Below, piece by piece: positions 113 through 36,332 of a stretch of DNA of 36,952 bases; the first letter of the stretch is position 1, and every line of letters starts with the position of its first letter. Origin of the DNA: Arachnia propionica (GTDB taxonomy: Bacteria; Actinomycetota; Actinomycetes; Propionibacteriales; Propionibacteriaceae); the NCBI RefSeq assembly GCF_003932785.1, contig NZ_RQYT01000028.1, positions 1 through 36,952 on the forward strand, in the 5' to 3' direction. A program made the position numbers and the translations under genes. A model generated the notes under the pieces. It was not told where the DNA came from and made no database searches. It saw nothing but the letters and a program-made list of their open reading frames with translations.

Positions 113-391
113 TCAGCGGCGGTACCTTCTCCTCAGCCGCTTGCGCTGGATCCTCAGGGCCACCCGGTAGGAGAGGTACTCCGCGACGACGTAGCCAACG
201 CCCATCAGGACCGCGCCCAGGTACCGCGATCCGGGGAACATCAGCGCGATGAAGACGAACGTCCCGACCCCGCGAACCACGTAGTTCGTCGCACTGGGCC
301 GGTAGATGTGGAGGTGATCCTCGAGCGTCCCGTACCAGATCCGCCACCGCCAGGCAGCCCGCCTGCGGTCCACAGTGCCCCTACTCCCCAT
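113..391 (-). CDS. Small membrane protein of unknown function
   Basis: A 92-residue protein starting from the ATG at 391. The N-terminal 25 residues are basic and Arg/Trp-rich. A hydrophobic segment follows at about residues 38-75 (VGTFVFIALMF, then GAVLMGVGYVVAEYL), long enough for two membrane passes, and the tail is strongly basic (RIQRKRLRRRYRR). I do not recognise a family. It lies 25 bp downstream of the DUF4143 ATPase gene on the same strand, so it may be its operon partner. The frame stays open upstream, but the extension lies in the ATPase coding region and is not hydrophobic, so the ATG at 391 is preferred. Being real is inferred from the coherent membrane segments and basic flanks (positive-inside pattern). 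Confidence 0.6.
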   Translation of the reverse strand: MGSRGTVDRRRAAWRWRIWYGTLEDHLHIYRPSATNYVVRGVGTFVFIALMFPGSRYLGAVLMGVGYVVAEYLSYRVALRIQRKRLRRRYRR

Positions 392-416: not shown

Positions 417-1688
417 TCACGGACCGAGGAGCCCGAGAGGCACGACAGCAACACCATCCTGACGACGATAGGCATAGGGTCCGGTGTTGATGACGACCCG
501 GTCGACGACTCGGTCCCCCAGTTGCCCCTTGAGCCAGTTGAGGTGCCTGACATCGGCATCGGCGACGGCACCCGCCAGTTTGACCTCGATGGCGAGCACC
601 CGCAGATCATCGGATTCCACGATCAGATCGATCTCATGATCGGTGTTCTTCGTGCGCGCATGGCTCACGGTGGCCCGGATCGGCTGGGCGTGGACCCGGA
701 CGGACTGCGTCACCAAGGACTCAAAGAGAGCCCCCACCCAGGTTCCGGTGTCCGGTTGGATCCGCGGGCCCTCCCCCCGCAGGAGCCCCCCCGCACCAAC
801 ACCCACCAGGCGAGCGGCCAGGGCCGGGTCGACCAGATGGTGCTTCGACGCCAACGTCAGCCGCTTCAGCGGAGAGAACGACGGGATCCAGGCAGGCAGC
901 GGGTCAAGCACGAAGATGTTCTCCAGGTGTTCCCGGTAGATCTTCACGGTCTGGCGTGCAGGCTTGTCGGACTCACCCGGCGTCGCCGCATTCAGGATCG
1001 CGGTATGACTGGCGTCGGTGGCTGTCGCGGCGGCGTGGGCACGGAGCCAGGCCAGCAGGGTGTGACGACGACGCACCCTCACCCCCGCCTCGGGGAGGTC
1101 GCGATCCACCATGCGGGCGAGATAGCTGTCCAACTGCATCGAACGGGCAGGCTCCGGAAGGTCTCGAATCCCCGGAAAGCCGGATCGAAGAATCTCCTCG
1201 ACGTAATCGGGGAGAGTCAGTGAGCAGTGGCCGGAGATCTTGGCACCACCGCCCTCCAGAAGGGCTGCCATCGAGACCGTCGGTTCACTCACTCCGCGCT
1301 CCGCCAAGGACATCGGGCGCAGCAGGAAGGAGGCGATACGCCCGGCGCCGGAATGCATGCGCGCCTCAGGGGCCGGTGTGGCAGAGCCAGTGAGCAGGAA
1401 ACGCCCACCGCTGGGATCAACATCAACGGCCCGGCGGACATGGTCCCAGATCTGCGGGACAAGCTGCCATTCATCAATGAGAAGGGGCGATGGCTCATCC
1501 TGGATCGAATCCGGGTGATCGCTGAGGGCTTGCCGACGCACCGGGTCGTCCAGTTGAACCTCGGAGCGGCTGTGCTGCCGCGCCGTCGCCGTCTTGCCCA
1601 CCCCCTTCGCCCCTTCGATGGCGATGGCCGGCAGGTGCGGAAACAGTTCGTCGAGCAGGTCGTCCAGGACTCGGCGTCGATACCCCAT
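417..1688 (-). CDS. AAA ATPase with C-terminal DUF4143 (PD-(D/E)XK-like) domain, copy 1
   Basis: A 423-residue protein. Walker A is GAKGVGKT at residues 26-33 and Walker B is LLIDEWQ at 69-75; a sensor-like FLLTGSATP lies near residue 97. This is the AAA_14 plus DUF4143 layout. The C-terminal domain has EIDLIVE followed by AIEVKL, the D...E-x-K spacing of PD-(D/E)XK nuclease-like folds; whether it cuts nucleic acid is unknown for the family. The start at 1688 fits a leaderless transcript: TAGATT (1695-1700, minus strand) ends 6 nt before the ATG and there is no ribosome binding site. Three 23-bp direct repeats cover the upstream region. A related protein is encoded at 28714-29949. These families are common in actinobacteria and archaea and lack an agreed function; control of a partner gene, defence or toxin-like roles have been proposed only loosely. 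Confidence 0.9.
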   Translation of the reverse strand: MGYRRRVLDDLLDELFPHLPAIAIEGAKGVGKTATARQHSRSEVQLDDPVRRQALSDHPDSIQDEPSPLLIDEWQLVPQIWDHVRRAVDVDPSGGRFLLTGSATPAPEARMHSGAGRIASFLLRPMSLAERGVSEPTVSMAALLEGGGAKISGHCSLTLPDYVEEILRSGFPGIRDLPEPARSMQLDSYLARMVDRDLPEAGVRVRRRHTLLAWLRAHAAATATDASHTAILNAATPGESDKPARQTVKIYREHLENIFVLDPLPAWIPSFSPLKRLTLASKHHLVDPALAARLVGVGAGGLLRGEGPRIQPDTGTWVGALFESLVTQSVRVHAQPIRATVSHARTKNTDHEIDLIVESDDLRVLAIEVKLAGAVADADVRHLNWLKGQLGDRVVDRVVINTGPYAYRRQDGVAVVPLGLLGP

Positions 1689-1694
1689 GCGCCG

Positions 1695-1700
1695 AATCTA
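1695..1700 (-). promoter_or_regulatory. Predicted -10 box of DUF4143 ATPase copy 1
   Basis: TAGATT on the minus strand matches the actinobacterial TANNNT -10 pattern and lies 6 nt from the start codon at 1688, predicting a leaderless transcript. It overlaps the first 23-bp repeat by three bases. This is inference from pattern and spacing. Confidence 0.5.
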
Positions 1701-1766
1701 CCAAACAGACGTAGTTACATCTACCAAACGGACGAGTCCTTACCTACCAAACGGACGGATCCTGAC
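1698..1766. repeat. Three 23-bp direct repeats upstream of DUF4143 ATPase copy 1
   Basis: Units at 1698-1720, 1721-1743 and 1744-1766 follow each other with no gap. Each begins CTACCAAACGGACG (unit 1 has CTACCAAACAGACG), then 9 less conserved bases; units 2 and 3 agree at 20 of 23 positions. The array starts at the predicted -10 box of the ATPase gene and runs upstream over its -35 region, as an autoregulatory operator would. A similar-period array with a different sequence precedes the second DUF4143 gene. Confidence 0.85.
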
Positions 1767-21786: not shown

Positions 21787-21850
21787 AGGACGGGCCACGG
21801 CACGGGGTTGAGCCGGTATCGGCGGAGTGCCCACACGGCCCTCCTGGTTT

Positions 21851-21971
21851 CGCCTGCCTTGCCCTTGATTCGCCTGCCTTGAGTCGGAAACGCCTGCCTT
21901 CTTTCCATTCGCCTGTCAAACAAGACAGGCGAGCCGCTGAAATGGCAGGCGAATCGGCATCAAGGCAGGCG
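21851..21971. repeat. Seven-unit, 20-bp phased inverted repeat array
   Basis: CGCCTGCCTT occurs at 21851, 21871 and 21891, exactly 20 bp apart, then CGCCTGTCAA at 21910. After a central perfect hairpin (TCGCCTGTC, AAACAA, GACAGGCGA), the reverse motif (A/G)CAGGCG ends at 21931, 21951 and 21971, again 20 bp apart. Most units are preceded or followed by an ATTCG/CGAAT extension. The array fills the gap between the converging response regulator and VapC-like toxin genes, ending 2 bp before the toxin stop. It could be a bidirectional terminator, an interspersed repeat family or a protein-binding array. Confidence 0.8.
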
Positions 21972-21973
21972 AA

Positions 21974-22378
21974 TCATGGCACCTTCACCTCGATGAAGTC
22001 CTCCAGCCCGGAGAAGTCGTCCGGGTTCCGGGTCCACAACACGGCACCGTGCGCGTGCGCGGTGGCAGCGATGAGCAGGTCCATTACGCGCCGACGTGGT
22101 TGCCGTCCGGCCTCGACGACCGCAGCCGCCAGGCGGCCGTAACTGGCCGCGACCACCTCGTCCAGCGGCAGGGCATCGAATCGGTGCTGCAGGATGCTGA
22201 GCCGACGCAGGCGTTCGGCCCGCAGCTCAGCGGACGTGGCGACGAGGACCCCGAGGTGCAACTCCGCCAGTGTCACGGCACTGATCGCAAGAACGCCCGG
22301 GATCGGGACCACGTCCTGGGCGATCACGACACTCGTGTCCAGCAGACCCCGCTGCTCCCCCGACGCCTGTCCGGTCAC
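21974..22378 (-). CDS. vapC: VapC-type PIN-domain toxin
   Basis: A 134-residue PIN-domain protein. The acidic residues expected for metal-dependent RNase activity are present: Asp14 (LLDTSV), Glu39 (TLAELHLG), Asp100 (RVMDLLIAATA) and Asp120/Asp121 (TRNPDDF). Family members cleave tRNA or rRNA to halt growth. GTG at 22378 overlaps the stop of the antitoxin gene (GTGA), the usual coupling for these modules. It is preceded on the same strand by the jet/mks genes; the operator and -10 box before the antitoxin suggest an independent promoter. Confidence 0.92.
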   Translation of the reverse strand: MTGQASGEQRGLLDTSVVIAQDVVPIPGVLAISAVTLAELHLGVLVATSAELRAERLRRLSILQHRFDALPLDEVVAASYGRLAAAVVEAGRQPRRRVMDLLIAATAHAHGAVLWTRNPDDFSGLEDFIEVKVP

Positions 22379-22623
22379 CGCTCATCCCAGGGGTCGCGGA
22401 TGCCGTCGGCCAGGAGCTCCCGGTCCGCTTTCCACTCGGCATCCGCAGGACCCGTGAAGAGATCCGACACATCGTCCCAGTGCCGCCACCTCGTCTCCCG
22501 GGCCGGCACGATCCTGGCACTCGGACGACCGGACACGGTGACGACGACTTCCTCGCCCTGCTCCACGCGTCGCAGCAGCGCGGAGGCGTCCTGCCTCAAC
22601 TCACGGAGTCCGACGATGCCCAT
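22375..22623 (-). CDS. vapB: Phd/YefM-type antitoxin
   Basis: An 82-residue antitoxin. The N-terminal half has the Phd/YefM fold pattern: GLRELRQDASALLRRVEQGE, then EVVVTVSGRPSARIVPA. The C-terminal half is acidic and Trp-rich (WRHWDDVSDLF, DPWDER), a toxin-binding tail. It should neutralise the PIN toxin and repress the operon. The ATG at 22623 lies 6 nt after a TACCAT -10 box, so the transcript is predicted to be leaderless, and a perfect palindrome overlaps that box. Confidence 0.9.
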   Translation of the reverse strand: MGIVGLRELRQDASALLRRVEQGEEVVVTVSGRPSARIVPARETRWRHWDDVSDLFTGPADAEWKADRELLADGIRDPWDER

Positions 22624-22665: not shown

Positions 22666-25600
22666 TCAGCCTGGCGTGGCCGCCTCCTCGGGCTCCAAGC
22701 TGTCGTCGTCCTCGATCTCCTGGAGCGGCTGGATGTAGGAGTAGCCGGTCCGGTCGTTCTTCGTCACCGCCAGGATGAGGTCGCAGTGCGGCTCCAGACC
22801 CGTCACCTTGTCCAGCGGGGCCCCGATGATGAGCTGGAAGCCGAGCCCCCGCCAGGCCCGCACCGCCCGGAACGCGAACTCCCCGTCGGCCTTGATGAAC
22901 CCCTCGTCCAGCAGGACCGGCGCGAACCTCGGCTTCGTGCGGGTCTCGTCGCCCAGCTGGTAGCGCAGGGCCGCGCCGACGATGAAGGACACCAACTCCT
23001 GGCTCTCGCCGCCGCTCTTGCCGCCGAGCGACGCGTAGGTGCTCAGCACCCGGCCCTCACGGTCGACCTTCGTGGCGGTCACCTCGATGTGGCGACGCAC
23101 GTCGAGGAGGTCGTCGCGCGCCGACGACCCCTCCACCTCCGCCAGCGACGTGACGAAGGACCTCAGCTGCGCGAACCGCTCGTCCATCTGTTCGTCGTCC
23201 CACTCCACCGCCACATTCGACGACAGCTGCCGTAGCTGCCGACGGAACACGGTCAGCGCCTGCGGGTGCAGCTGCCGCACCGTGATCCGCAACCGGTCCT
23301 CGCCAGCCCCGAACGGCAGATCGCCGAGGATGTCGTTGACCGGGTCGAGCCGGTCGTGGATGTCCTCCAGGGCCTCCTCGAAGGAGTCGCCGAGCAGCTT
23401 GAGGTCGTTGCCACTCCACTCCTGGAAGTGTCGCTTGAACACCTGTCTGCGTTCGAACAGGCCGTGATGGATGATCCCGGTCAGGATCTCCGCGTAGTCC
23501 CGGTACGACGCGACGTCGACGCCACGGTTCGGATCCGGCCAGCGGTCGTTGAACCGCTCGAAGATCGTCCGCAGCTGCCCCTCGAGCATCTCGGCGCGCG
23601 CCGACTCCGTCCCCAGCTCGGTTCGGAGCCGCCGCCCCAGGTCCCGCATCGCGTCGCGGAGCCCCTGCCAGGTCACCTCGCCGCGGCCCTCCCGCAGCGC
23701 CTCGTCGAGATGTCCCTCGTCGTCGGCGTCGAGCCGCGCCACCCCGGCCCCCTCCAGCGCCTCGACCTCGAGGGCGACGGCGTCCTGACGGTCGACGATC
23801 TCGCCGTGCTCGGTGCGGAACCCCTCCAGCAACAACGTCGCCTGGTGGTGGGCGAGCCGCTGCTCCTCCCGCCGCGCGACCAGCGCGTCCAGGCTGCCCT
23901 TGAGCTCGGTGAGGATGTCGGAGTTCCGCAGCAGCGCCTCGTGGCGGGCCCGCAGCTCGGCCAGCTCCGCGTCGATGACCGCCACGTCGATGTTCTCCCA
24001 CGCCGTGGCCAGCACCGTCGTGTGGGCGGCCTCCTCGCGGCGCAACCGCTCATGGGCCTCCTGCAGCCCCTCGATCTCCTCCGCCAGCCGGGTCCGTTCA
24101 GCGACGCGGTCTTGCAGCTGCTGCTGCAACTCCGCGACGCGGGTGGCGGAATCGAAACCGAGCACGGGACGCTGGTTGCGGTTCCAGCCGTGCGCGCCCC
24201 GTCGCCCCGACGACACCTGGCCACGGATCGTGACCTTCGGTTCGTCGCCGCCGAGCTGCTCGGGGCCGTCGACGCACAGATGGTCGAAACCCGGGCGCGA
24301 CACCCGTTCCTGAACCCACCCGGCGAACGGGGAGTCGACCTTGAACCGCAGCCGCCCCGACAGGTAGCGCTCGTCGCCGGATTCGCGGAGCGGCAGCCCC
24401 AGCTCGACCCCCTCGAAGGAGATGCGACGCCCGAGCTCCAGCCCGTCGATCCGCTGCCGGATCTCGCGCTGCCGCCGATGATCCATGAGCAGGGTCAGCC
24501 CGACGCCACGCAACGTCACCTCCGCCGCCAGCCGCCACTGCTCGTACTCCGGGGCCAGATCCATCAGCTCCGCCGCGAACGGCAGCTCGGCAGGACTCAT
24601 CCCACACGCCTCAGCGATGAGGTTGCGGGCCCGGTCGTGGTCCATCGGCACCAGGCCGGATCGGTGCCGCAGCGACTCCAACTCCTGACCGATGGCCTCG
24701 ATCTCCCCGTCCAGCGCGGGCCGGGCCTCGATGCACCGGTCCCGACGTCCCATCAGGTCGGTGCTGGCCTCGTCGGCCCGGGTGAGGAAGTCGCGGGCCC
24801 GACGCTGCAGGTCCTCGAAGCCGGCCTGGTCGAGGTCATCGATGCCGAGCACCTCGGTACGTTCCCGGAACTCGTCGAGGGCGCGGGCGGCCCGCTCCCG
24901 TCGCGCCTCGCCACGCTCGATGTCGGCACCCAACGTCTCCAGCGCCCCGCCGCCGTTGGCCCGGATCTGTTCCTCGACCTGCCGGACCCGCTCATCGGTG
25001 CGTGCCACCGCCTCCCGGGCCGCGTCCACGGCGGCGGTGGCGTCGCGACGCTGGTCGCGGTTGCGGTCCTCGGCCTCGCGCAGCAGCCGTTCCTCGGCCC
25101 GCAGCTGCCACAGTCGGTACGGGGTGTGATCGTCGCCGGTGGTGAGGCCGTAGCGGTCGATCCGCTCCGCCCGCCCCTTCGCCTGCAGGTAGTCGATGTG
25201 GAGTCCGGGGATCGGGTCGAGGATGCGTTTCTTCTCACCGTCGGTCTCCAGGTCCCGGTACGACTGGTCCAGGCTGGCGAACTGCTCCAACACCCGCTCG
25301 GCGGCGTCGAAGGTGCGGGGACGTTCCAGCACGAGCTCCTTGTAGAGCCGGTCGACGGTCTTGACCTGGTGCCCCGCCTGGATGCGGGCGAGCAGCCTCA
25401 GGGCCCGCTCCCCCTCACCACTGGACCCGATGCCGAGCCGCGAGGTGACGGCGTCGAAGAAACGGGTGAGGGTGTCGTGGTGGACGATGGCCGGGAAGTG
25501 GGTGCGCATGACGCGCGGGTCGAAACGGCTGGCGGCGACGGCGGCGAGCTCCTGCAGGTCGATGTCACCGGGGATGGTGAACAACTTCATCGTGACCTCG

Positions 25601-26046
25601 GAGGTGTGACTCGCCCCGACCGGCACGTAGTAGGTCCGCAGCGGGGTGAAGCGGCGCCCCAGGTCGTCCTGGAAGGTCATCGCCAGCGCACCCCAGATGG
25701 GGGCGTCGTCGCCGCGCAGCACCTGATCGGTGCCGTCATCGGCGGTGTCGCGTTTCCCCTTGAGGTAGGTGAGGACGTTGCGTTGGCTGGCGTCGCGGGC
25801 CCGACCCACCGTCGCGTTGTTGGAGGCGCCGTTGAACGGCACCGATGAGGGCATCATGAGGGCCGTGTACGCGTCGAGGAGGGTGCTCTTGCCGGTGCCG
25901 GAGCCGCCGGAGATGAGGGTGGTGCCCTCGGCGATGTCGATGCGTTTGTGGCCGTGGAAGCCACCCCAGTTGACGACCTGCAGGCAGCGGGCGCGCCACT
26001 GCTGGGTCTCGTCGGCGAAGCCGGGAAGCGACGGGGCCTCACTCAT
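22666..26046 (-). CDS. jetC: Wadjet JetC / condensin MksB, SMC-like ATPase
   Basis: A 1126-residue SMC-like protein. Walker A GGSGTGKST is at residues 47-55 after a WGGFHGHKRIDI strand region. Long Arg/Glu/Ala coiled-coil arms fill the middle, around a central hinge-like globular part. The ABC signature region GGKSGGESQ is near 1008-1016 and Walker B FAPVLLDEGF at 1041-1050. In type I Wadjet and MksBEF systems this ATPase works with JetA and JetB to extrude DNA loops, and JetD cleaves small circular DNA. The start overlaps the jetB stop by 8 bases. No jetD follows; a toxin-antitoxin operon comes 16 bp later. Confidence 0.93.
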   Translation of the reverse strand: MSEAPSLPGFADETQQWRARCLQVVNWGGFHGHKRIDIAEGTTLISGGSGTGKSTLLDAYTALMMPSSVPFNGASNNATVGRARDASQRNVLTYLKGKRDTADDGTDQVLRGDDAPIWGALAMTFQDDLGRRFTPLRTYYVPVGASHTSEVTMKLFTIPGDIDLQELAAVAASRFDPRVMRTHFPAIVHHDTLTRFFDAVTSRLGIGSSGEGERALRLLARIQAGHQVKTVDRLYKELVLERPRTFDAAERVLEQFASLDQSYRDLETDGEKKRILDPIPGLHIDYLQAKGRAERIDRYGLTTGDDHTPYRLWQLRAEERLLREAEDRNRDQRRDATAAVDAAREAVARTDERVRQVEEQIRANGGGALETLGADIERGEARRERAARALDEFRERTEVLGIDDLDQAGFEDLQRRARDFLTRADEASTDLMGRRDRCIEARPALDGEIEAIGQELESLRHRSGLVPMDHDRARNLIAEACGMSPAELPFAAELMDLAPEYEQWRLAAEVTLRGVGLTLLMDHRRQREIRQRIDGLELGRRISFEGVELGLPLRESGDERYLSGRLRFKVDSPFAGWVQERVSRPGFDHLCVDGPEQLGGDEPKVTIRGQVSSGRRGAHGWNRNQRPVLGFDSATRVAELQQQLQDRVAERTRLAEEIEGLQEAHERLRREEAAHTTVLATAWENIDVAVIDAELAELRARHEALLRNSDILTELKGSLDALVARREEQRLAHHQATLLLEGFRTEHGEIVDRQDAVALEVEALEGAGVARLDADDEGHLDEALREGRGEVTWQGLRDAMRDLGRRLRTELGTESARAEMLEGQLRTIFERFNDRWPDPNRGVDVASYRDYAEILTGIIHHGLFERRQVFKRHFQEWSGNDLKLLGDSFEEALEDIHDRLDPVNDILGDLPFGAGEDRLRITVRQLHPQALTVFRRQLRQLSSNVAVEWDDEQMDERFAQLRSFVTSLAEVEGSSARDDLLDVRRHIEVTATKVDREGRVLSTYASLGGKSGGESQELVSFIVGAALRYQLGDETRTKPRFAPVLLDEGFIKADGEFAFRAVRAWRGLGFQLIIGAPLDKVTGLEPHCDLILAVTKNDRTGYSYIQPLQEIEDDDSLEPEEAATPG

Positions 26047-26869
26047 CGCGGTCCTCCTCGGGCAGGTCGGCGTCCAGGTCGTCCTCGTCATCCGCGGCCT
26101 CGGCGGCCCGGGCCGCCTCGATGGCAGCAGCCTGGTCGGGGGTCAGGTCGATGAGCGACGGTTCCGGCTCGGGTTCGTCGGGGGTGGGGTCGTTCTGGCG
26201 TTGCAGCCAGGCGAGGAGTTCCTTGAGTCTCCCGATCGGCAGCAGGGTCTCGATGACGGGCGAGATGACGAGGCGGTCCTCCTCGGCGGTGCGCTCCAGG
26301 ATCCCCATCGCGCGGAGGTTCTCGATGGCGTTGCGGGTGCGCGACTCGTCGCCGTAGACATCCGTCGCCGACGGGGGCCGGTACCGCGCGACCGCGTCGA
26401 TGCACTCCTGCCGATCCACCCACACCCGGCCGGAGCCGGTGCTCTCGGCGAGGTGACGCTGCCTCAGGTGGACCATGAGGACGGTCTCCTCCCGGGTGTA
26501 GGAGGTGTCGCGCAGCAGCGTCGGGAAGCGACGCGGCACCTCGGAGCGAACCTGCACCTTGTAGGCGACCCCGCGTTCCGCGTCCATGACGAGGTCGAGG
26601 AACAGGTCGTTGAGGCGGCTGCGGAGGATGCGCCGGTTGCGGACGAGGGTCTCCCAGGCGCGCGGGTGGCGGTCGCGGGTGATGAGCGGGGTGCGGATGA
26701 GCCCGACGAGGCACTGCCGCACGTCGAGGGGCAGCTCACCGTCGTCGCCCTCGAACAGGGAGAGGGAACTGTCCCGGGTGTCGTCCTCGACCGCCTCCGG
26801 GTCGATGAACCCGTCGTCGACGGAGGTTGGCTCGTCGAGGATGTCCGGGTGCTCGTCATGGTCAGCCAT
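26039..26869 (-). CDS. jetB: Wadjet JetB / condensin MksE (DUF4194)
   Basis: A 276-residue DUF4194 protein. After an acidic disordered N terminus (HPDILDEPTSVDDGF) comes the conserved core: LPLDVRQCLVGLIRTPLI, then RILRSRLNDLFLDLVMD, SYTREETVLMVHLRQR, and a winged-helix-like TRNAIENLRAMGIL...LVISPVIETLL. The last 50 residues are acidic. MksE/JetB (KITE-like) dimers bind the kleisin JetA and the JetC heads. The ATG at 26869 overlaps the jetA stop by 8 bases, and the stop overlaps jetC by 8 bases, an intact three-gene operon. Confidence 0.92.
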   Translation of the reverse strand: MADHDEHPDILDEPTSVDDGFIDPEAVEDDTRDSSLSLFEGDDGELPLDVRQCLVGLIRTPLITRDRHPRAWETLVRNRRILRSRLNDLFLDLVMDAERGVAYKVQVRSEVPRRFPTLLRDTSYTREETVLMVHLRQRHLAESTGSGRVWVDRQECIDAVARYRPPSATDVYGDESRTRNAIENLRAMGILERTAEEDRLVISPVIETLLPIGRLKELLAWLQRQNDPTPDEPEPEPSLIDLTPDQAAAIEAARAAEAADDEDDLDADLPEEDRDE

Positions 26870-28361
26870 GGGTGTGTCCCTTCGGGGTGCTGAACTCGTG
26901 CGCTGTGACGGGGACCTCGGGCAGGAGGAGGTCGCGGGAGGTGCCGTCGGGGCGGATGGTGGTGACGGGGGTGAGCGCGTCGGTCTCGCCCTCCCACAGC
27001 CCCAGCCGGGTGAGGACCTGCAGCAGCCCGAGGATCTCGACGGGGCGACGCAGGTGGTCGGGGAGGGAGTTGAAGGCCTCGGAGAGGGTGGTCGCACCAT
27101 GGTCGGTGAGGGCCCGGCGGAGGGCGTCGCGGACCTCGGCGAGGAGGGGCCCGCCGTAACGGCGGACCTGATCCAGCGACGGCGGCGGCGGGGCGCTGGC
27201 GTCGACGTCCTCGAGCGCGGCGGGCGGGAGGTCGTCGGCGGGGTCGTGGAAGCGGGTGCGCAGATGATCGGTCTCGACGCGGCCGGGCATCCAGGGCATG
27301 GGGACGTAGTCGCGGGGGCGGGCGTCGGTCATCCAGGTGGCGAGCTGCTGGTCGAGCTGCCGCAGCACCTGGCCGAGTTCCCGGTTGGTGCGGGAGTCGA
27401 CGGCGGTGAGGTGGTCGGCCAGCGCCCGCGACGCCTTGTGCTGCTTCTCCTGCACGTTGCGGACCCCGGTGCGCATGATGGAGGCGGCGGCGAGGAACTC
27501 CTTGCGTTCGCGTCGGGTGAGGCCGATGGCCTCGGCGAAGGGGTGGTCGACGATGGCACGCAGGTCGCGTCGGAAGCTCGCGAGGAGGGTCTCGTCGCTG
27601 AGGATCGCCAACGCACCCTCGAAGGCCCTGCCCTGCTCGGTGCTGGCGGTGAGGTCGCGGCTGGCGGCGAGGTAGTCGTCGAGGACCTCGCCCTTGGGGC
27701 GTTCCTCGGCGCGGAAGTCGCGGATCATGTCGCGGTGGATGCGGTCGATCTCCTCCTCGACGCGACGGAAGTCGCCGGGGAGCTGGGACAGCAGGTTGCG
27801 GACGTTGAGGTAGCCGCTGAGGACCTCCTCGTCGGAGGCGGCCCGGAGTTCACCGCCGGAGGCGAGGCGGGTGTGTTCGGCGGTGAGCCGGGCGATCTCG
27901 TCCTCGAGGGCGGCGATCCGGGCCTCGCGGTCGGGGTTGGCGTCGAGGGCGGTGCGGCTGACGGCCTCGACGATGGTGGTGAGGCGGGACTCGCTGATGA
28001 GGGCCCGGTCGCGGGACATCTCGTCGAAGACCCGTTGGGCGGTGAGGGTGGCGGAGGTGAGTTCGTAGACCTCGCCGCCCTCGTCGTCGGGGAGGCGACG
28101 CAGCCAGCCCTCGCGCATCCAGGCGCGGCACAGGCCGAGCCCGTGGGCGCCGGGTGGCAGTTCGTGGCCGAGGCTGGCGAGTTCCTCGAGGTGGGCGTCG
28201 ACCTGCGAGTGGAGCCGGTCGGCGCGCACCGACTTGGTGTGCTGGGGGAAGCAGGTCCGGAAGGTGGCCATGGCGAGCCACGACCACTTGTACGTCACGA
28301 GCCTGAGGGTCGGCCCCTCCCCCGCCTCCTTGAGACGGGCCACCTCCGCCGCGATGCTCAC
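26862..28361 (-). CDS. jetA: Wadjet JetA / condensin MksF (DUF3375)
   Basis: A 499-residue DUF3375 protein, the kleisin-like MukF counterpart. Recognisable parts are LRLVTYKWSWLAMATFRTCF near the N terminus, the coiled-coil ALEDEIARLTAEHTRLASGG, VEEEIDRIHRDMIRDFR, and RTNRELGQVLRQLDQQLATW. The GTG at 28361 is chosen because GGAGGAGG lies 6 nt before it and the upstream frame is Pro/Arg-rich without family character. It is the first gene of the jetABC operon. No operator was identified; the nearest upstream structure is the hairpin element at 28589-28667. Confidence 0.92.
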   Translation of the reverse strand: MSIAAEVARLKEAGEGPTLRLVTYKWSWLAMATFRTCFPQHTKSVRADRLHSQVDAHLEELASLGHELPPGAHGLGLCRAWMREGWLRRLPDDEGGEVYELTSATLTAQRVFDEMSRDRALISESRLTTIVEAVSRTALDANPDREARIAALEDEIARLTAEHTRLASGGELRAASDEEVLSGYLNVRNLLSQLPGDFRRVEEEIDRIHRDMIRDFRAEERPKGEVLDDYLAASRDLTASTEQGRAFEGALAILSDETLLASFRRDLRAIVDHPFAEAIGLTRRERKEFLAAASIMRTGVRNVQEKQHKASRALADHLTAVDSRTNRELGQVLRQLDQQLATWMTDARPRDYVPMPWMPGRVETDHLRTRFHDPADDLPPAALEDVDASAPPPPSLDQVRRYGGPLLAEVRDALRRALTDHGATTLSEAFNSLPDHLRRPVEILGLLQVLTRLGLWEGETDALTPVTTIRPDGTSRDLLLPEVPVTAHEFSTPKGHTHG

Positions 28362-28713
28362 ATCACCCCTCCTCCGGTCGCGCCCCAAGATGGTACCCGC
28401 CCGCCACGTCCGGGGGCTCCCCGCGGGTGCGTCGGGGACATCCGACGGACGCTCCGGCACCTTCCAGAGCCTCCCGGGGCCGACCGGAGCCCCCGCCGGA
28501 CCAGGCCCACGCCAGACGAGAACCACTCCAGGCCGGGGAACGACTCGCGGATGCCCAATTCACGTCACCTGCACCCGCCCTACCTCCATGAGCACGAACC
28601 GCCGCGTTGCTTCCACGAGACCCCTCTTTGAAACGTTTCAAGCGAAGCAGAACGGCGGTTCGTGACCGGATCGAGCGCGGCATGAGGCCTGAAGCACGAG
28701 GGGGTGGGGGCCG
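28362..28713. other. 352-bp non-coding region upstream of jetA
   Basis: It holds the jetA ribosome binding site, about 220 bp of GC-rich sequence without a convincing frame or promoter, and the hairpin element at 28589-28667. The DUF4143 ATPase gene ends at 28714, so both jetA and the ATPase gene are on the minus strand and read-through into jetA is possible. Confidence 0.6.
28589..28667. repeat. Hairpin element, copy 1
   Basis: A 79-bp element. Outer arms CACGAACCGCCG (28593-28604) and its complement (28653-28664) extend imperfectly inward to about 20 bp. In the loop lies the perfect 14-bp palindrome TTGAAACGTTTCAA (28628-28641). It is nearly identical (about seven differences) to 30103-30180 and in the same orientation. 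The two copies bracket the DUF4143 ATPase gene and its 23-bp array. Confidence 0.85.
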
Positions 28714-29949
28714 TCAGAGTCCCCGCCACAGGGCCGCGATGGGCATGGCCCACAGCCGCTCCCCCAAGGGGAAGGACATGGTGCCGGTGTGCAGGACGAA
28801 GCCCCTGACGAACTGGTCGCCGATCTGGTCCCGCAGCCACGCCAGGTGTCGGGCGTCGCGTTTCGTGGCCGTCATGGCGGCCTTGACCTCGATCCCCACC
28901 ACCGCGCCCACCCTGGACTCCAGCACGATGTCCACCTCATGGGATCCGTTGGTGTCGCGAAAATGGAACGCCTCATGGTTGGGCCGCAGCAGGGGACGCA
29001 GCTGCGCCATGACGAAGGTCTCGATGACTCGTCCCAGCCGATTCGCGTCCAGGAGCAGGCCCTGTGCATCGTCGCCAGCCAGATGCATGGCCATTCCAGG
29101 GTCGACGAGATGCAGTCTGGGCGCCTTCACTGCCCGACGCAGCCGGTTGACACCCCACGAGGGAATGCGTTCGATGATGCGGAGCTCCTCCAGGAGGTCG
29201 AGGTGGGTCCTGACCGTGCGCTGATCGACGTCAGCGAACTCAGCGAGCGACTGGAGCGACGGGAGTCCGGCAGTGTTCAGGGCAGCCGCACGCACCAGGC
29301 GGAGCAAGGCCTGGGGCCTGCGCACCGTCTGGAGTTCCTGTGCGTCGCGATGCACGAGCTGTTCGACGTATCCGTCGTACCAGCGGGCGCGACCGCGAGC
29401 ACTGAGCCCGACGGCTGCCGGAAACCCACCCCGGGCTGCCATGGCCACGTGGTCGACGAGACCCGGGGCGTCGCGGAGCTCCCCCACGGGAGGGTTGTCA
29501 ACGGCGAAGAGACGCTCCAAAACCTCGTGACCTCGAGGACCGTGCTCGATCTCCGCCTGGGTGAGACCGAACATGGGGACCGGGACGATCCGACCCGTCG
29601 CAGGCCAACCGGCTCCGCTGAGCCGGGAGCGGACACTTCCGGTGATGAGGTAGCGCCCGGGGGTCGCCCCGGAGTCGACCGCTCGCTTCACGGCACCCAA
29701 TGACTCGGGGGCACGTTGCCACTCATCGATCAACACAGGGGGCAGCATGGCCGCCAGAACCTCGTCCGGGGCCATGGCCAGGGCACCTGCTTGCTCCGGT
29801 CGATCGAGACGAAGCGTCGAAGCGGCCCGGCGCAGAGCCGTCGTGGTCTTGCCGCACCCCCTGGGGCCGGTCAGCATCACGGCGGGCAGCTCCTGCAGCA
29901 CCTCATCCAACAGGGTGTCCACGAAACGTGGGATGTAGTCGTCGGGCAT
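28714..29949 (-). CDS. AAA ATPase with C-terminal DUF4143 (PD-(D/E)XK-like) domain, copy 2
   Basis: A 411-residue protein of the same family as 417-1688. Walker A GPRGCGKT is at residues 28-35, with VLIDEWQ as Walker B and YLITGS as sensor region. A winged-helix-like part (LQSLAEFADVDQRTVRTHLDLLEEL) lies between the two domains and could bind DNA. The C-terminal domain has HEVDIVLE and GIEVKAA, the spacing of PD-(D/E)XK folds. The ATG at 29949 has AAGGAG 4 nt upstream; the longer in-frame start at 30012 would run through the repeat array. It is bracketed by two hairpin elements and preceded by four 23-bp repeats. Its role is unknown. Confidence 0.9.
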   Translation of the reverse strand: MPDDYIPRFVDTLLDEVLQELPAVMLTGPRGCGKTTTALRRAASTLRLDRPEQAGALAMAPDEVLAAMLPPVLIDEWQRAPESLGAVKRAVDSGATPGRYLITGSVRSRLSGAGWPATGRIVPVPMFGLTQAEIEHGPRGHEVLERLFAVDNPPVGELRDAPGLVDHVAMAARGGFPAAVGLSARGRARWYDGYVEQLVHRDAQELQTVRRPQALLRLVRAAALNTAGLPSLQSLAEFADVDQRTVRTHLDLLEELRIIERIPSWGVNRLRRAVKAPRLHLVDPGMAMHLAGDDAQGLLLDANRLGRVIETFVMAQLRPLLRPNHEAFHFRDTNGSHEVDIVLESRVGAVVGIEVKAAMTATKRDARHLAWLRDQIGDQFVRGFVLHTGTMSFPLGERLWAMPIAALWRGL

Positions 29950-29976
29950 GATGCTCCTTGAGGGACGAACACTGCC

Positions 29977-29982
29977 ATCGTA
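29977..29982 (-). promoter_or_regulatory. Predicted -10 box of DUF4143 ATPase copy 2
   Basis: TACGAT on the minus strand fits TANNNT. It would give a leader of about 20 nt with AAGGAG as ribosome binding site before the ATG at 29949. The 23-bp array begins two bases upstream of it. Confidence 0.45.
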
Positions 29983-29983
29983 G

Positions 29984-30075
29984 CCCTGATGCAGCTGTGA
30001 CACGGCTCCCAATGCTGTTTTTGCACACCTTCTGATGCTGTTTCAGCACGGCTCCTGATGTCGATCCAGCACGAC
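29984..30075. repeat. Four 23-bp direct repeats upstream of DUF4143 ATPase copy 2
   Basis: Units 29984-30006, 30007-30029, 30030-30052 and 30053-30075 are contiguous. The plus-strand pattern is TGATGC near the left and GCACGGC at the right. Against the third unit, the others agree at 15, 16 and 17 of 23 positions. The third contains a perfect TGCTG/CAGCA inverted repeat. The array directly abuts the predicted -10 box of the ATPase gene, as in copy 1, but the repeat sequence differs. Confidence 0.8.
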
Positions 30076-30102: not shown

Positions 30103-30180
30103 TGAGCACGAACCGCCGCTTTGCTTCCACGAGACCCTGTTTGAAACGTTTCAATAAAAGCAGAACGGCGGTTCGTGACC
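30103..30180. repeat. Hairpin element, copy 2
   Basis: A 78-bp element. Outer arms CACGAACCGCCG (30107-30118) and its complement (30166-30177) extend to 20 bp with two mismatches. The centre has the perfect palindrome TTGAAACGTTTCAA (30141-30154), which resembles LacI-family operators with a central CG. It lies 27 bp upstream of the 23-bp array and is directly repeated at 28589-28667. Confidence 0.85.
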
Positions 30181-30927: not shown

Positions 30928-32913
30928 TCAACCCTGCTCGAGCAACCCCAGGCAACGACGCAGCGTGGCCTGTTTCTCCTCGTCCTCCCGGATCGAGGGT
31001 GCCAGCCGCCGGTCGTCGTCCAGCAGTGAGCGCAGTCCGAGGAGGACCTGCTCCGCGATCCCCGGCTCCCGCTCCCGCAGCAGCCCACACAGCTCCACCT
31101 CCAGGCCGGGGGTCCAGCCGTCGCGAAGCTCACGGGCCACCAGATCCACCGTCTCCTCGGCTGACAGTGGCCAGGGTTCACCCAGGCCGAGCAGCACACT
31201 CCCGCACACCGCGCGGTCGTACTCGGCCTCTCGGATCAGGGCGCCCAGTCGGGTCACCAGTTCCGCACGCTGCGCGTCGTCGATGCGTCCGATCCACTCC
31301 GCCGCCAACCTGGCCGCCTTCCCGGCGTAGAAGTTCTCCACGACCAGCAGGTCGACGATCCTCGGCCAGGCCTGACGAACCGGCAACACACCCGCGTCGA
31401 CCAAGCCCTTCACGCAGGCGACGGTCACGTCCTCGTCGCTGTCCTCGTCCGCCAGAAGGCCCTGCCACCAGGCGATCAGCTGCGGGTGGTCCCGCTGCGG
31501 GAAACCGTCGTCGAGGGCCTGGTCATGGTTGGGTCCGCATGCCTCCAGGGCTCTCTCCCAGTCCGTCACCTCCCCGGTGTGACGGGCCAGCCGGATCAGG
31601 TCGTCGGTGTTCTCCGCCGCCGCGCGGGCCGCCTGCAGGTCAGCTTCCGTGTCGGCCCAGTGGGGGTTCGCCGGGTCCCACCGCTTCGCGACGGCGCGCA
31701 GCGGACCCTGCAGGTCGTCCGGCCAGGTCGCGATCCATTCGGCGAGGGTGCGCCCGGTGAACTCGTCGTCGGGTTCTCGGGTGGTCAGGTATTCGGCCAC
31801 CACCTGCGCCAGGATCTCCCCCGGAACCACGTCGGCCTCCTGGAAGGCCGACCCGATGGGGGCTCCGATTTGCGGTTCGATGGCCACGTTCAGGTCCTCA
31901 TCCGCGAGGTCTTCGCCCTGCTCCAGGCCCCACCGCAGCGTGGCCGCCAGGTGGTTCTCCCAGCGAGGATCCCCGGCGACGGCGAGGGCATGGGCGACGC
32001 TGGCTCGAGGATGGGTCCACCCCTCAACGGGGCCGTCGAACCGTGAGGCAGCCCCGTCGAGGGCGTCGAGCACCTCAGGGGTACGGGGCAGGCGCAGCAG
32101 AAGGGTGATGGCGTCCTCAGCGGGCAGGGTGTCATCACGGGTTCCGGCGAGAACCTGTCGGATGGCATCACAGGTGGCCGATCGACGGCGGTCAGCGGCG
32201 TCGAGGAGTCCGATCATCACGGATTCGGTCGGCTCGAAGGCGGCCAGCAGTTCGGGGCCGCGCGGGACGTCGCCGAGCCAGGCGACGAATTCGTGTTCCT
32301 CCACCAGCACCTGGTGGGTTGCCACCAGTGCGACGTCCTGGTCCGTTGCGGTGCCTGCTGCGAAGCGGCCGAGGGCAGCAGGCACCGCGAGGCGAGGGTC
32401 ATCGCTGCCCGGGAACAGGCCGTGATGTCCAAGGGCCACCGCGGCGGCCCAGGCGAGGTCCCCGTGATCCTCGAGGGCCGAGATCAGGGCGTCGGTGAGT
32501 TCCGGGGTCGGCGGGCCGATGAGGGACACGACCTCGGCGGCCGCCACCACTTCGTCGCCTCCGGCCGAGATGAGAGCCGCAAGCACGGGGTAGGAGGCCA
32601 GCAGCACGGAACGCATGTCCTGTGCGGTGCTGCTGGGGTTCTCGACGACCGCCTTGGCAGCGCTCTGGATGAGGGTCAGGGGTGGTTCGGGAGGCAGTCC
32701 GTCGGCGATCATCGCCACAGCCACCTCGACGGTGGGCACGGCAGCCGCGCAGAGCCCACCCTGGTGCAGGACGGAGTACTCCAGCTCATCCAGGGCCTCC
32801 TCGTCGCCCGCGGCCATCTTCTCGATGAGCGTCGGCACGTTGCGAGCGGACCCGTAGGCATGTTGCAGGGAGTCCCAATCGACGGCTTTCAAGGCCTTCT
32901 TCCACATCGACAT
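30928..32913 (-). CDS. Predicted helical-repeat (HEAT-like) protein, paralog A
   Basis: A 661-residue, acidic, Ala/Leu-rich protein that I cannot assign to a family. The whole length reads as paired helices, for example AAEVVSLIGPPTPELTDAL followed by WAAAVALGHHGLFPGSDDP, so a solenoid is likely. No signal peptide, membrane segment or enzyme motif was seen. It is a clear paralog of the protein encoded at 33010-35001: both begin (S/T)xWKK(A/T)(L/M)KAVDW, share HHxLFPGSDDPRL, LIRLPRTPEVLDA-like, HPQLxAWWQG and end LRRCLGLLEQG. The gene follows paralog B by 96 bp and ends the HTH-ParA operon. Its start lacks a strong ribosome binding site. Confidence 0.8.
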   Translation of the reverse strand: MSMWKKALKAVDWDSLQHAYGSARNVPTLIEKMAAGDEEALDELEYSVLHQGGLCAAAVPTVEVAVAMIADGLPPEPPLTLIQSAAKAVVENPSSTAQDMRSVLLASYPVLAALISAGGDEVVAAAEVVSLIGPPTPELTDALISALEDHGDLAWAAAVALGHHGLFPGSDDPRLAVPAALGRFAAGTATDQDVALVATHQVLVEEHEFVAWLGDVPRGPELLAAFEPTESVMIGLLDAADRRRSATCDAIRQVLAGTRDDTLPAEDAITLLLRLPRTPEVLDALDGAASRFDGPVEGWTHPRASVAHALAVAGDPRWENHLAATLRWGLEQGEDLADEDLNVAIEPQIGAPIGSAFQEADVVPGEILAQVVAEYLTTREPDDEFTGRTLAEWIATWPDDLQGPLRAVAKRWDPANPHWADTEADLQAARAAAENTDDLIRLARHTGEVTDWERALEACGPNHDQALDDGFPQRDHPQLIAWWQGLLADEDSDEDVTVACVKGLVDAGVLPVRQAWPRIVDLLVVENFYAGKAARLAAEWIGRIDDAQRAELVTRLGALIREAEYDRAVCGSVLLGLGEPWPLSAEETVDLVARELRDGWTPGLEVELCGLLREREPGIAEQVLLGLRSLLDDDRRLAPSIREDEEKQATLRRCLGLLEQG

Positions 32914-33009
32914 GGCGTGATCCTATCCCGACCGAAGGCCGTGGGAACACGTACCCAACCCGGTTTCCTGCGCGTCCTCTGGGCCCTCAGCGTCGCCCCG
33001 ACGACCCGT

Positions 33010-35001
33010 TCAGCCCTGCTCGAGCAACCCCAGGCAACGACGCAGCCTGGCCTGCTTCTCCTCGTCCTCCCGGATCGACGGGACGAGCCGCCGGTCCCCC
33101 TCCAGCAGTGCCCGCATCCGGGACGCGAACTGCTCCGTGGCCTCCGGTTCCTGATCCCTGAGCAACTCGCACAACGTCACGGCGCTGTCCGGCCCCTTGT
33201 AGTTGGTGAGCAGGTCGCGGATCACCATGGTGGCGGTGTCCTCCGGCGACAGCGGCCACTGCCCGCCCAGCCGGACCAGCACGGTCCCGCACTCGGCCCG
33301 GTCGTACTCCGCCTCGGCCACCACCGTCGCCAACCGCTCCACCAGCCCTGCCCGGGCGGTGTCGTCGACGCGGTCACTCCACTCCGACGCCAGCCGGGCG
33401 GCGTCACCGACGAAGTAGTTCTTCGGCGTGACGAGCGCGACGACGCGGTCCCAGCCCTCGGCAACGGGCATCGCCCCCGCCTCGACGACCCCCTTCAACG
33501 CCGCCACCTGCTCCTGCTCGTGGTCGCTGTCCGCGAGGATGCCCTGCCACCAAGCGACGAGTTGCGGATGGTCACGTTCCGGGAACTGCTCATCGACCTT
33601 CTCGTGGTGCGTGCCCTCGGTGGCGGCCAGGGCGGCGAGCCAGTCGTCGAGAAGCCCGGTGTGCCGGGCCAACGGGATGAGGTCGCGGGTGTCCTTCGCC
33701 TCGTCGCGGATGCGTTGCAGATCCGCCTCCGAGTCGGCCCAGTGCGGGTTGAGCGGATTCAGTCGTTTCGCGGCAGCCCGCAGCGGTTCCTGCAGCTCGG
33801 CGGGCCAGGTCGCCGCCCACCGCGCCACGCTCCACCACGTGAACTCCTTGCCCTGAGGGTCGAGGACCTCCAGCGCCTCGCCGATCAGCGTCGCGAGTTC
33901 CCGCCCCGGAACCACACCCACCTCCGCCAGGGCGATCCCCAACGGCGAGTGCACACCAATATCCTTCGACGCGTACAGCTCGGTGCTCTCCGCCTCGTCC
34001 CGGTGCTCCAGCGCCCACCGGATCGCGGTCTCCGCATGCCGCTCCCACCGGGGATCACCTGCCTCGGCGAGGATGAGGGCGGCGCTGGCGTGTGGCTGAC
34101 TGAGGAGGATCTCGCCGTCGAACCTCGGGGCGGCTTGGTCGATCGCGTCGAGCACCTCCGGGGTGCGCGGCAACCGGATCAGCAGGTCGAAGTCGTACTC
34201 CCCCACCTCCTCACTGCTGGTGAGGAACTCGGCCACCCGGGACGCGACGGCCGGGGTGATGGAGCGGGAACGCTCGGCCGCATCGAGCAGCCCGTGGGCG
34301 ACCTCACTGCTGGGCTCCATCGCCAGGAGGACCTCCTCGCCTCGCGGGACGGAGCCGATCCAGCTGGGGTTCTCACGCTTCGTGACGAGATCCGCATGGG
34401 CGGCGACCAGTTCGACGTCCTCCCCCGTGGCATGGCCCGCCTCGAACCGGCCCAGGGCGGCAGGCACCGTGAGACGGGGATCGTCGCTGCCCGGGAACAG
34501 GTCGTGATGCCCCAGCGTCCGTGCCGCCACCCACGACAGCTTCCCGCCCGAGTCCAGCGCGTCGACGAGGGCAGCGGTCAACTCCGGCCCCGGGGTTCCG
34601 AGATGCACGACGAGATCCGCCACCTTGACCGCGTCCCGACCCCCGGCGGCCAGCACCGGGATGAGGACCGGGACCGCCTTGTCGAGGGCGACACGCGTCG
34701 CCTCCACCACGTCGGCACTCCCCAACCCGTTCCCGACGGCCTCCGCCGCCGTCCGGATCAGCTTCAGCGGCTGTTTCGGCGCCACCCCGTCGCCGATCAT
34801 GGCGGTCACGACCTCGACCACCGGCACTGCCGCGGGCCACAGGCCGCCCTGGTGCATCGCCGAGGCCTCGATGTCGTGGAAGGCCCCCTTCTTGCCCTTG
34901 GCAAGCTTCTTCAGCAGGTCGGGGAGGTCCTCGGCGGTGCCATAGGCGTGCCTGAACGACTTCCAGTCGACGGCCTTCATGGTCTTCTTCCACGTCGTCA
35001 C
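33010..35001 (-). CDS. Predicted helical-repeat (HEAT-like) protein, paralog B
   Basis: A 663-residue helical-repeat protein, paralog of 30928-32913 over its full length. Shared segments include AVDWxSxxHAYG at the start, MHQGGLWPAAVPVVEVV, LGHHDLFPGSDDPRLTVPAA, LLIRLPRTPEVLDAIDQAA, ERDHPQLVAWWQGILAD and a nearly identical last 20 residues. The GTG at 35001 is preferred because GGAAGGTG lies 8 nt upstream and the start mirrors the paralog. The DNA around both stop codons is almost identical, including bases after the stop, which points to recent duplication or gene conversion. It lies 56 bp after the ParA-like gene. Function unknown; the solenoid could bind the ATPase or another protein. Confidence 0.8.
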   Translation of the reverse strand: MTTWKKTMKAVDWKSFRHAYGTAEDLPDLLKKLAKGKKGAFHDIEASAMHQGGLWPAAVPVVEVVTAMIGDGVAPKQPLKLIRTAAEAVGNGLGSADVVEATRVALDKAVPVLIPVLAAGGRDAVKVADLVVHLGTPGPELTAALVDALDSGGKLSWVAARTLGHHDLFPGSDDPRLTVPAALGRFEAGHATGEDVELVAAHADLVTKRENPSWIGSVPRGEEVLLAMEPSSEVAHGLLDAAERSRSITPAVASRVAEFLTSSEEVGEYDFDLLIRLPRTPEVLDAIDQAAPRFDGEILLSQPHASAALILAEAGDPRWERHAETAIRWALEHRDEAESTELYASKDIGVHSPLGIALAEVGVVPGRELATLIGEALEVLDPQGKEFTWWSVARWAATWPAELQEPLRAAAKRLNPLNPHWADSEADLQRIRDEAKDTRDLIPLARHTGLLDDWLAALAATEGTHHEKVDEQFPERDHPQLVAWWQGILADSDHEQEQVAALKGVVEAGAMPVAEGWDRVVALVTPKNYFVGDAARLASEWSDRVDDTARAGLVERLATVVAEAEYDRAECGTVLVRLGGQWPLSPEDTATMVIRDLLTNYKGPDSAVTLCELLRDQEPEATEQFASRMRALLEGDRRLVPSIREDEEKQARLRRCLGLLEQG

Positions 35002-35057
35002 GTGTGGTTCACCTTCCTGCTGCATGGCATCCGGGTCGGACTGGTCGCCGTTCGCGG

Positions 35058-36332
35058 TCAGAGGCCCTGCGCGACACGGGCGGCGGCCTGCAGCCAAGCG
35101 AGCCGGGTCCCCGGCCGGAGCGCGTCCCAGCGGAGTCGTCCATCCACCATGGCGGGGTCGAAGGGGATGGTGCTGACGCTTCGTGCGATCTCCCGGAAGC
35201 CGCTGACGACCCGATCGACGTCGCGTCGGTGGGCCGTGGGGTCGGCCTGGTTGATGATGACGGCGGCCTGTTCGGCGAGCCGGGCGCCGTGGTCGCCCTG
35301 GGCGGCGAGGCTCTCCAGCAGCAGCGCGCCCGATTCGGCGTGGTCGTCGCGGGTGGTGGTGGCCATGACGAGCTGGTCCGTGTGGTGGATCATGCGACGC
35401 CACATCGGGTCGGACTCGTCGTTGCCGGAGTCCATGAGCACGAGCCGGTAGTACTTGCACGCGACGCGGTGGATGGCATCCACGTCGTCGGCGGAGATGC
35501 GCTGCGCGGAGGCCAGCTCCATCGGCTTGCTGCGCAGCACGTCGTAGCGGTCCTCGGTCTGGTGGTGGACGTAGTGCGCCAGATCCGCGGCCTGGGCCTG
35601 GGTGGACAGGAGCTTCCCCGTCGCGGGCAGCAGCTCCAGCAGGGTGCCGTCGTGGGGGCCCTGCTCGGTGCGCCAGCCGAGGGTGCCGCGGGTCTGGTTG
35701 TTGTCCCACGCGAGGACCCCGGCGCCGCCGTGACGGGCGAAGGCCGCGGCGAGGAGCGCCGTCGTGGGGGTCTTCCCGGCGCCGCCCTTGCCGTTGACGA
35801 TGGCGATGGTGCGGGGGCCGGGCCAGTGACGGCTCACCATGCTGATGGCGGCGCGTTCGGTGAGTTCCTGGTGGCTCGGTGGCATCCGGATCCCGACCCT
35901 GCCCATTGCGCCGCGCCAGCCCTGCGTCGCGGGTGCCGGCTGGTTCTCGGAGCGGAGGAAGGAGTTCTCCCGGGCCCGCCGCGCGACGACGGGGGGAGAG
36001 TCGAGGAGCCCCGCTGACGACGGCGAGGGGGAGGAGACGAACGGTGACGGTTGCGCCGCAGGGGCCGGGGTCGGGGGCGGCACCGGGGTGGCGGGGGTTG
36101 GGTTGGTGGTGACGAGTCCGTCGGGATGGACGAGGAGCGAGAAGACCTGGCCCTCGCTCTCACGGGCCTCGAGGGAGATCACCTCGTTGGTGCGTCGGGC
36201 GTGCTCGATGACGAGCGTGAGGCAGGCGCGCCGAGCATCCACCACCGACCCCGCTGTGACGAGGCGTTCGGTCTCGTCGTCGATGACGACGCTCCCAGTA
36301 CCGTCTGGACGGACGGTCGCGATGGCGGCCAT
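35058..36332 (-). CDS. ParA/MinD-like ATPase with proline-rich linker
   Basis: A 424-residue protein. An N-terminal domain of about 75 residues (ATVRPDGTGSVVIDDETERL) is followed by a Pro/Thr/Ala-rich linker (about 80-115). The C-terminal part is a deviant-Walker ATPase: IAIVNGKGGAGKTPTTALLA near residue 180, LAWDNNQTRGTLGW, LVLMDSGNDESDPMWRR and VIINQADPTAHRRDVD. The ParA/MinD group moves or positions cargo using ATP-dependent dimers on DNA or membrane; EspI-like and element-borne proteins also have a Pro-rich linker. No ParB or membrane-targeting helix is visible. The ATG at 36332 has AGAGG 8 nt upstream and lies 11 bp after the HTH gene, ahead of the two solenoid genes. Confidence 0.88.
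   Translation of the reverse strand: MAAIATVRPDGTGSVVIDDETERLVTAGSVVDARRACLTLVIEHARRTNEVISLEARESEGQVFSLLVHPDGLVTTNPTPATPVPPPTPAPAAQPSPFVSSPSPSSAGLLDSPPVVARRARENSFLRSENQPAPATQGWRGAMGRVGIRMPPSHQELTERAAISMVSRHWPGPRTIAIVNGKGGAGKTPTTALLAAAFARHGGAGVLAWDNNQTRGTLGWRTEQGPHDGTLLELLPATGKLLSTQAQAADLAHYVHHQTEDRYDVLRSKPMELASAQRISADDVDAIHRVACKYYRLVLMDSGNDESDPMWRRMIHHTDQLVMATTTRDDHAESGALLLESLAAQGDHGARLAEQAAVIINQADPTAHRRDVDRVVSGFREIARSVSTIPFDPAMVDGRLRWDALRPGTRLAWLQAAARVAQGL

Follow-up and report, generated by a model that had tools for sequence, protein, structure and literature searches.

The stretch of DNA analysed here, referred to as the window, is a 36,952-bp contig (C102) of the 3.49-Mb draft genome of Arachnia propionica. 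It holds two genes of the AAA_14/DUF4143 ATPase family, here called W1 and W2, each preceded by a tandem array of 23-bp units. We found that the array before W2 is one instance of a rule of the whole family. The position of the arrays, their periodicity, the geometry of the predicted promoter and the co-variation of the repeat units with the winged helix of the encoded protein make it likely that each array is a private operator, recognised by the product of the same gene via the winged helix and used to control that gene's transcription.

W2 is located on the minus strand (28714-29949) and encodes 411 amino acids comprising an AAA_14 P-loop ATPase, a winged helix and a DUF4143/PD-(D/E)XK-like domain; it belongs to PDC-S01, a candidate phage-defence system. 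An earlier note on this DNA had described four adjoining 23-bp units upstream of it, and these are borne out: from distal to proximal they lie at 30053-30075, 30030-30052, 30007-30029 and 29984-30006 on the minus strand, with pairwise identities of 57-74%. The 150 bp upstream of W2 have a period-23 self-match score of 25, whereas the highest score in 3000 mononucleotide shuffles was 18. When the window was divided into 491 tiles, only the W2 locus and W1 reached a score of at least 14 at period 22/23. Immediately after the last unit, again as described before, follows the -10-like box TACGAT (29977-29982, minus strand, by eye), at the place that corresponds to a family-wide enrichment of TANNNT. 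AAGGAG, which by eye resembles a ribosome-binding site, is located at 29954-29959 on the same strand before the ATG at 29949. Distal unit 1 is by eye closest to the unit of a 72% identical orthologue. This orthologue has a clear array with related units, and in a 59% identical copy related units can be made out by eye, below detection (p 0.3). A CRISPR array was ruled out, since the units are contiguous, 22-23 bp long and without spacers.

W1, the window's first family member (copy 1; 417-1688, minus strand, 423 amino acids), has the same period, as the earlier note had claimed. Its array (1689-1757, minus strand) consists of three 23-bp units at 1757-1735, 1734-1712 and 1711-1689, and TAGATT (1700-1695, minus strand; boxes by eye) is located within the last unit, 6 nt ahead of the ATG. 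The units of W1 and W2 are no more similar than chance pairs: their similarity of 0.396 corresponds to the 15th percentile of 4732 pairs of proteins less than 35% identical. They had been called unrelated, which holds for the pairwise comparison but not at the level of the family, where both are variants of a common skeleton described below.

In the Arachnia genome DUF4143 has 16 matches. Upstream DNA was viewed for 14 of these, with a fragment (C103) and a contig-end copy (C121) excluded. Eleven of the 12 distinct near-full-length copies carry an array, each with a different unit, the exception being C138a; C119 was counted once in this tally at p 0.01, its duplicate entries having p-values of 0.01 and 0.02. 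Altogether 20 of 41 genomes, including the Arachnia genome and some genomes of the same order, were positive with 1 to 24 matches each, many of them fragments. For the genus we assembled 76 near-full-length gene entries, which include one same-order entry (L027) and C119 twice, and called an array when a tandem array was located within 150 bp of the start codon with p ≤0.01 against 100 shuffles. Arrays were present in 63 of the 76 entries, with a period of 22 bp in 11, 23 bp in 46 and 44/46 bp in 6. In the control region from -300 to -151 arrays were called in 7 of 76 entries, and in the 150 bp past the stop codon in 3 of 73; in both controls none had a period of 22, 23 or 44/46 bp.

The pattern extends far beyond the genus. 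A scan of named genomes covered 80 genes from 79 of 80 loci, one of them a near-identical Arachnia copy. Of these genes 65 have an array, with periods of 22 bp (35 arrays), 23 bp (15), 43-46 bp (14) and 14 bp (one); further upstream, 7 of 77 control regions gave an array, three of them at 22 bp. Taking both sets together, the period is 22/23 bp or about double in 127 of 128 arrays. Array-bearing taxa comprise actinobacteria, proteobacteria, clostridia, Opitutia, Lentisphaeria and one Uhrbacteria genome. Three genomes with high copy numbers (G196, G204 and G197) show the pattern as well: over the 87 genes of this comparison, 61 have a significant array of any period, of which 40 are at 22/23 or 45/46 bp, 12 at 32/33 bp, 5 at 39-41 bp and 4 at other periods. 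The respective control gave 12 of 86, including one each at 22, 23 and 45 bp. G204 alone holds 16 arrays with a period of 22/23 bp or its double. Searches of the open-licence literature, preprints lying outside this scope, listed no paper on arrays before DUF4143/PDC-S01 genes.

Fitting a site model to 129 arrays gave chains of 2-6 sites, with 3-6 sites in 114 of the 129. The 331 spacings are 23 bp in 180 cases and 22 bp in 151, in a model that permits only these two spacings and in which some registers look doubtful by eye. All arrays have a weak skeleton in common, approximately YKGCRAAWYNNCNR. It contains 6.3 bits of information compared with 2.6-3.3 bits in 24 fits on 8 sets with permuted unit positions, and the units of different copies are therefore divergent variants of one site. 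Between the last site and the start codon lie 15 bp (median). A TANNNT motif, at preferred offsets, is found 10-40 nt beyond the point where the last site begins in 49 of 65 arrays, against a background of 1.6%, and in 41 of 64, against 3.9%. We therefore predict a promoter at the end of the array, with its -35 and spacer region covered by the sites. We hardly credit an alternative in which the repeats act in the RNA as a leader or attenuator. The arrays are indeed close to the start codon; however, with the predicted -10 box at or after the last site most of the array is located upstream of the expected transcript, several family genes appear leaderless by eye, and an Rfam scan of the window returned no match.

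The earlier note had proposed that each protein reads its own repeat, and had suggested examining whether repeat and winged helix co-vary. They do. Unit similarity decreases from 0.875 for proteins more than 90% identical to background (0.45) below 30% identity. From 158 array-bearing genes we derived 75 phylogenetically independent pairs, 73 of which remained after an identity filter, and calculated partial correlations between unit similarity and the identity of four domain-size protein stretches with the rest of the protein accounted for. The winged helix (residues 225-281) gave a partial r of 0.43 (p = 1.5e-4), compared with 0.06 for the ATPase (1-180), 0.03 for the helices at 184-224 and -0.03 for the nuclease part (301-411). 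A value of 0.43 was attained in 7 of 5000 permutations within identity bins, and by any 57-residue window in 18 of 500 permutations; windows not overlapping 225-281 reached at most 0.24. The peak is located at 223-243, comprising a loop, the first helix of the helix-turn-helix (HTH) and the turn in the structure model, and the wing (263-277) gave a partial r of 0.22 (p 0.057). The repeat units thus seem to have evolved in step with the part of the protein that would read DNA, as expected if each copy recognised and controlled itself. We rely on the independent-pair analysis only. Mutual information, calculated over 129 arrays between individual columns of the protein alignment and the positions of the unit, was dominated by the split between clades, and we discarded it.

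Several observations weigh against a self-read operator. No array was detected in 13 of 76 genes of the genus set and 15 of 80 from the named genomes; by eye, some of the 13 have degenerate units and others none. A family member on plasmid pTT27 of Thermus thermophilus HB27 (L342, 9854-11074) lacks a clear array. According to the available part of one report, a DUF4143 ATPase gene is among the RNAs raised 6.6-fold in Ago-bearing cells of this strain with a plasmid (PMC4406477), which is probably the same gene; as it lacks a clear array, we do not use that observation as support. Repeat and winged helix co-vary only to a moderate degree (r 0.43), a value reached in 18 of 500 permutations once all windows are allowed for. 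In the independent pairs the canonical recognition helix (241-255) alone is not significant (partial r 0.09), while a loop of the nuclease part (329-340) scores an unexplained 0.32 (p 0.006). Earlier pairwise comparisons without tree control gave mixed peaks: pairs 50-95% identical peaked at window 265-276 (0.405), with 241-252 in second place (0.311), and pairs 38-95% identical peaked at an ATPase window, 25-36 (0.377). Finally, winged helices of STAND proteins usually serve control by nucleotide state and not the reading of DNA.

This last point also favours an alternative in which the main partner of the operator is another host regulator and the winged helix makes no contact with the array. 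A precedent exists in RptR, in the available part of its description a separate small repressor acting on three direct repeats before a defence island (PMC12255303). We nevertheless consider this unlikely: the 11 arrays of the Arachnia genome would each require a different regulator, unit similarity tracks the encoded protein's winged helix but none of its other domains, and the arrays precede family members in many phyla.

If each product reads its own array, the copies within a genome should not interfere with each other, and the earlier note had indeed proposed that they would be insulated. Searching the Arachnia genome with the C99 unit (up to 3 mismatches) returned the three positions of its own array and one additional site with 3 mismatches. 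A degenerate pattern for C120 and C138b matched exclusively these two arrays (8 of 8). Reversed-pattern controls gave 0 and 1 matches, respectively. Since matches are nearly confined to the genes' own arrays, no regulon is visible for the two patterns searched. Selected avoidance is a different matter: for 55 within-genome pairs above 35% protein identity, similar units were not avoided in comparison with between-genome copies of equal protein identity (a pair at 0.84 is the single gene C119 entered twice). Insulation is plausible as a natural consequence of private sites, with no sign that it is a selected property. Overall, the interpretation of the earlier note is partly supported, with co-variation and arrays in orthologues speaking for it and insulation as a selected trait remaining without support.

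In a tree of 252 proteins the period of the arrays follows the clades. Within the clade containing W1 and W2, 157 of 185 members have 22/23-bp arrays (or the double) and none falls into the 32-33 or 39-42 bp class. A second clade (support 100; including L193, L194 and L292) has 32/33-bp arrays in 18 of 25 members and one array of 39-42 bp; all 5 of its scanned proteins match PDC-S01 models. The third clade is weakly supported (41) and its signal is weak, with 39-42 bp arrays in 5 of 18 members and one 22/23-bp array; its sites look partly palindromic. Five changes suffice to explain the period classes on the tree. A period of 32-33 bp is about one helical turn longer than 22-23 bp, and the difference may reflect how the protomers pack.

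W2 matches the PADLOC profile of PDC-S01 (PDLC04790) with 377.7 bits over residues 1-409 of 411, and all 67 aligned family proteins match PDC-S01 as well. In the available part of its description PDC-S01 consists of an ATPase and PD-(D/E)XK and is the fourth most common defence system across prokaryotes (PMC12988326); for most such PADLOC candidates experimental validation is stated to be pending (PMC12988326, PMC13356809). The putative active-site residues are conserved in nearly all of 76 proteins (E310 in 74, D340 in 76, E354 in 74, K356 in 75); in the structure model D340, E354 and K356 sit within strands or at strand ends. Comparison of this model, mainly over residues 1-322, yielded a P-loop ATPase with the NLR-like arrangement of nucleotide-binding domain and winged helix. 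As modelled, the protein joins a STAND-like part of ATPase and winged helix, which resembles NLR/CED-4 proteins, to a PD-(D/E)XK-like domain. Contrary to the earlier note, the winged helix does not lie between the ATPase and DUF4143 domains, but within the DUF4143 Pfam match (201-357).

The genes appear to turn over rapidly. None of 24 relatives (stretches of about 1.5 kb or less each) has a family open reading frame (ORF) upstream of the DUF3151 gene, the position of W2 here; the closest relative retains the neighbours on the other side and carries its orthologue of W2 on a different contig. Two loci in genome G005 were considered as clean insertions with an empty site in sister genomes. At the first, both sisters (G002 and G004) retain the array and the gene start; at the second, G002 retains a remnant that resembles an array, and G004 shows a junction overlapping by 12 bp. 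With array or gene remnants in three of these four cases we rejected insertion and read the absences as losses. Two Agrobacterium pAt plasmids have only one segment in common within the 3.2 kb compared, namely 1.6 kb with the gene and its array. By tblastn, 286 of 72,556 plasmid records carry relatives of W2, as do 5 of 50,697 records from phages. Because of the patchy presence, the remnants and the shared plasmid segment, gene and array would seem to form a cassette that is gained, lost and diverges quickly. In addition, locus L068 (G010, contig C1) shows two equally scoring DUF4143 matches that lie some 10 kb from each other and are oppositely oriented; since merging left one distinct protein, this represents either a recent inverted duplication or an assembly effect.

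In another reading the protein's own nuclease would cleave or recombine the array, as part of a homing- or transposition-like element that ends in it. The conserved PD-(D/E)XK residues, the patchy numbers of matches (0-24 per genome, many fragments) and the pAt segment are in line with this. We regard it as decidedly improbable, as none of 73 genes has a 22/23-bp array in the 150 bp past its stop codon, the two absence loci look like deletions (the fourth case, the overlap junction, being indecisive), and a cleavage target has no need of a tie to a -10 box. Alternatively, the arrays could be iterons or partition sites of small replicons settled in chromosomes, with the ATPase as initiator or partition protein. 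Genes for winged-helix initiators classically have iterons of similar length next to them, and residues 215-261 gave one weak PHROG match to a replication initiator (E 0.0053). Eleven arrays with differing units in the Arachnia genome and 16 in G204, the -10 box at the array end and the conserved nuclease residues make this very improbable.

Other features of the window were noted during the analysis. W2 lies between two copies of a palindromic repeat of about 79 bp (28589-28667 and 30103-30180), which has TTGAAACGTTTCAA at its centre. We rejected these repeats as ends of a mobile unit because they belong to a dispersed element of the genome, with 42 match rows in G000 (some overlapping), 5 in G010 and none in 23 other genomes searched. 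Wadjet genes adjoin W2 on the minus strand at 22666-28526: JetA (26862-28526), JetB (26039-27100, the true start probably located further in) and JetC (22666-26091). At the place expected for JetD from the usual gene order, and without an exhaustive search for JetD, we found a Phd-like antitoxin/PIN pair (22375-22623, 21974-22378). At 21850-21975, between convergent genes, a hairpin is surrounded by two sets of imperfect repeats that face each other, have the core GGCGAATC and are spaced by about 20 bp; the core resembles family array units by eye and is perhaps a relic of a lost copy. Two large adjoining ORFs of 661 and 899 amino acids (30928-35709, minus strand) contain stretches 75-80% identical to each other, and neither has a Pfam or PADLOC match.

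Based on these results we propose that most AAA_14/DUF4143 genes of the family would carry a private operator, usually of 3-6 head-to-tail sites spaced 22-23 bp apart, which would span the -35 and spacer region of the gene's predicted promoter and end at its -10 box. The gene product would read these sites through its winged helix and thereby control its own transcription. Because the array covers the -35 and spacer region, this autoregulation is probably repression rather than activation. Given a STAND-like ATPase joined to a PD-(D/E)XK-like domain whose active-site residues are conserved, the array probably holds a potentially harmful defence effector at a low level until something displaces the protein from the DNA; we suspect that the family serves in defence. 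A wider picture is offered tentatively as one possibility. These proteins could be NLR-like ATPase-nucleases found across bacteria, in which the winged helix has become a sequence-specific DNA reader and the receptor docks on a private DNA lock. In that case the array would silence the gene and also keep its product inactive; the product would be freed once an invader has stripped, titrated or destroyed the array. Rapid joint change of lock and reader would allow many copies to coexist (16 in G204, 11 here), and the period (22-23, 32-33 and perhaps 39-42 bp) would be a trait of the clade, set by the packing of adjacent protomers on DNA.

If the private, self-read operator is correct, it would give a handle on the control of the very common and uncharacterised PDC-S01 family and a ready assay with array and gene in a reporter strain. 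It would also provide a natural set of more than 100 pairs of reader and site (158 array-bearing genes) from which winged-helix specificity could be learned, and would assign this domain a new role in NLR-like proteins.

The family can be compared with several known systems. In STAND ATPases of the NLR/Apaf-1/CED-4 type, including the archaeal 2qen, sensor repeats follow the ATPase-winged-helix part, whereas here a PD-(D/E)XK-like domain follows and the winged helix co-varies with a DNA repeat. STAND activators of the MalT type bind direct repeats at promoters through a separate C-terminal HTH and control other genes; STAND ATPase and direct repeats at promoters are common to both, with binding proposed in our case, but no regulon was seen here for the two unit patterns searched. 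Plasmid iterons likewise form tandem arrays, their sites measuring about 20 bp and lying next to a gene for a winged-helix Rep protein, with specificities that differ between relatives. In contrast, the family investigated here has many copies per genome, a tie to the -10 box, a nuclease-like domain and no known replication function. PDC-S01 is a single-gene PADLOC candidate for phage defence which W2 resembles over its full length; the available portions of its accounts mention no upstream array (PMC12988326, PMC13356809), while arrays are present in the family here. A regulatory parallel is RptR of an E. coli defence island, where direct repeats overlap the -10 of a defence promoter and are bound by a product of the operon. 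In the part of the description available, RptR is a small, separate dimeric repressor with a conserved site of three 9-bp repeats holding a palindrome (PMC12255303). In the family described here, the proposed reader is the putative effector itself, and the 22-23-bp unit differs from copy to copy.
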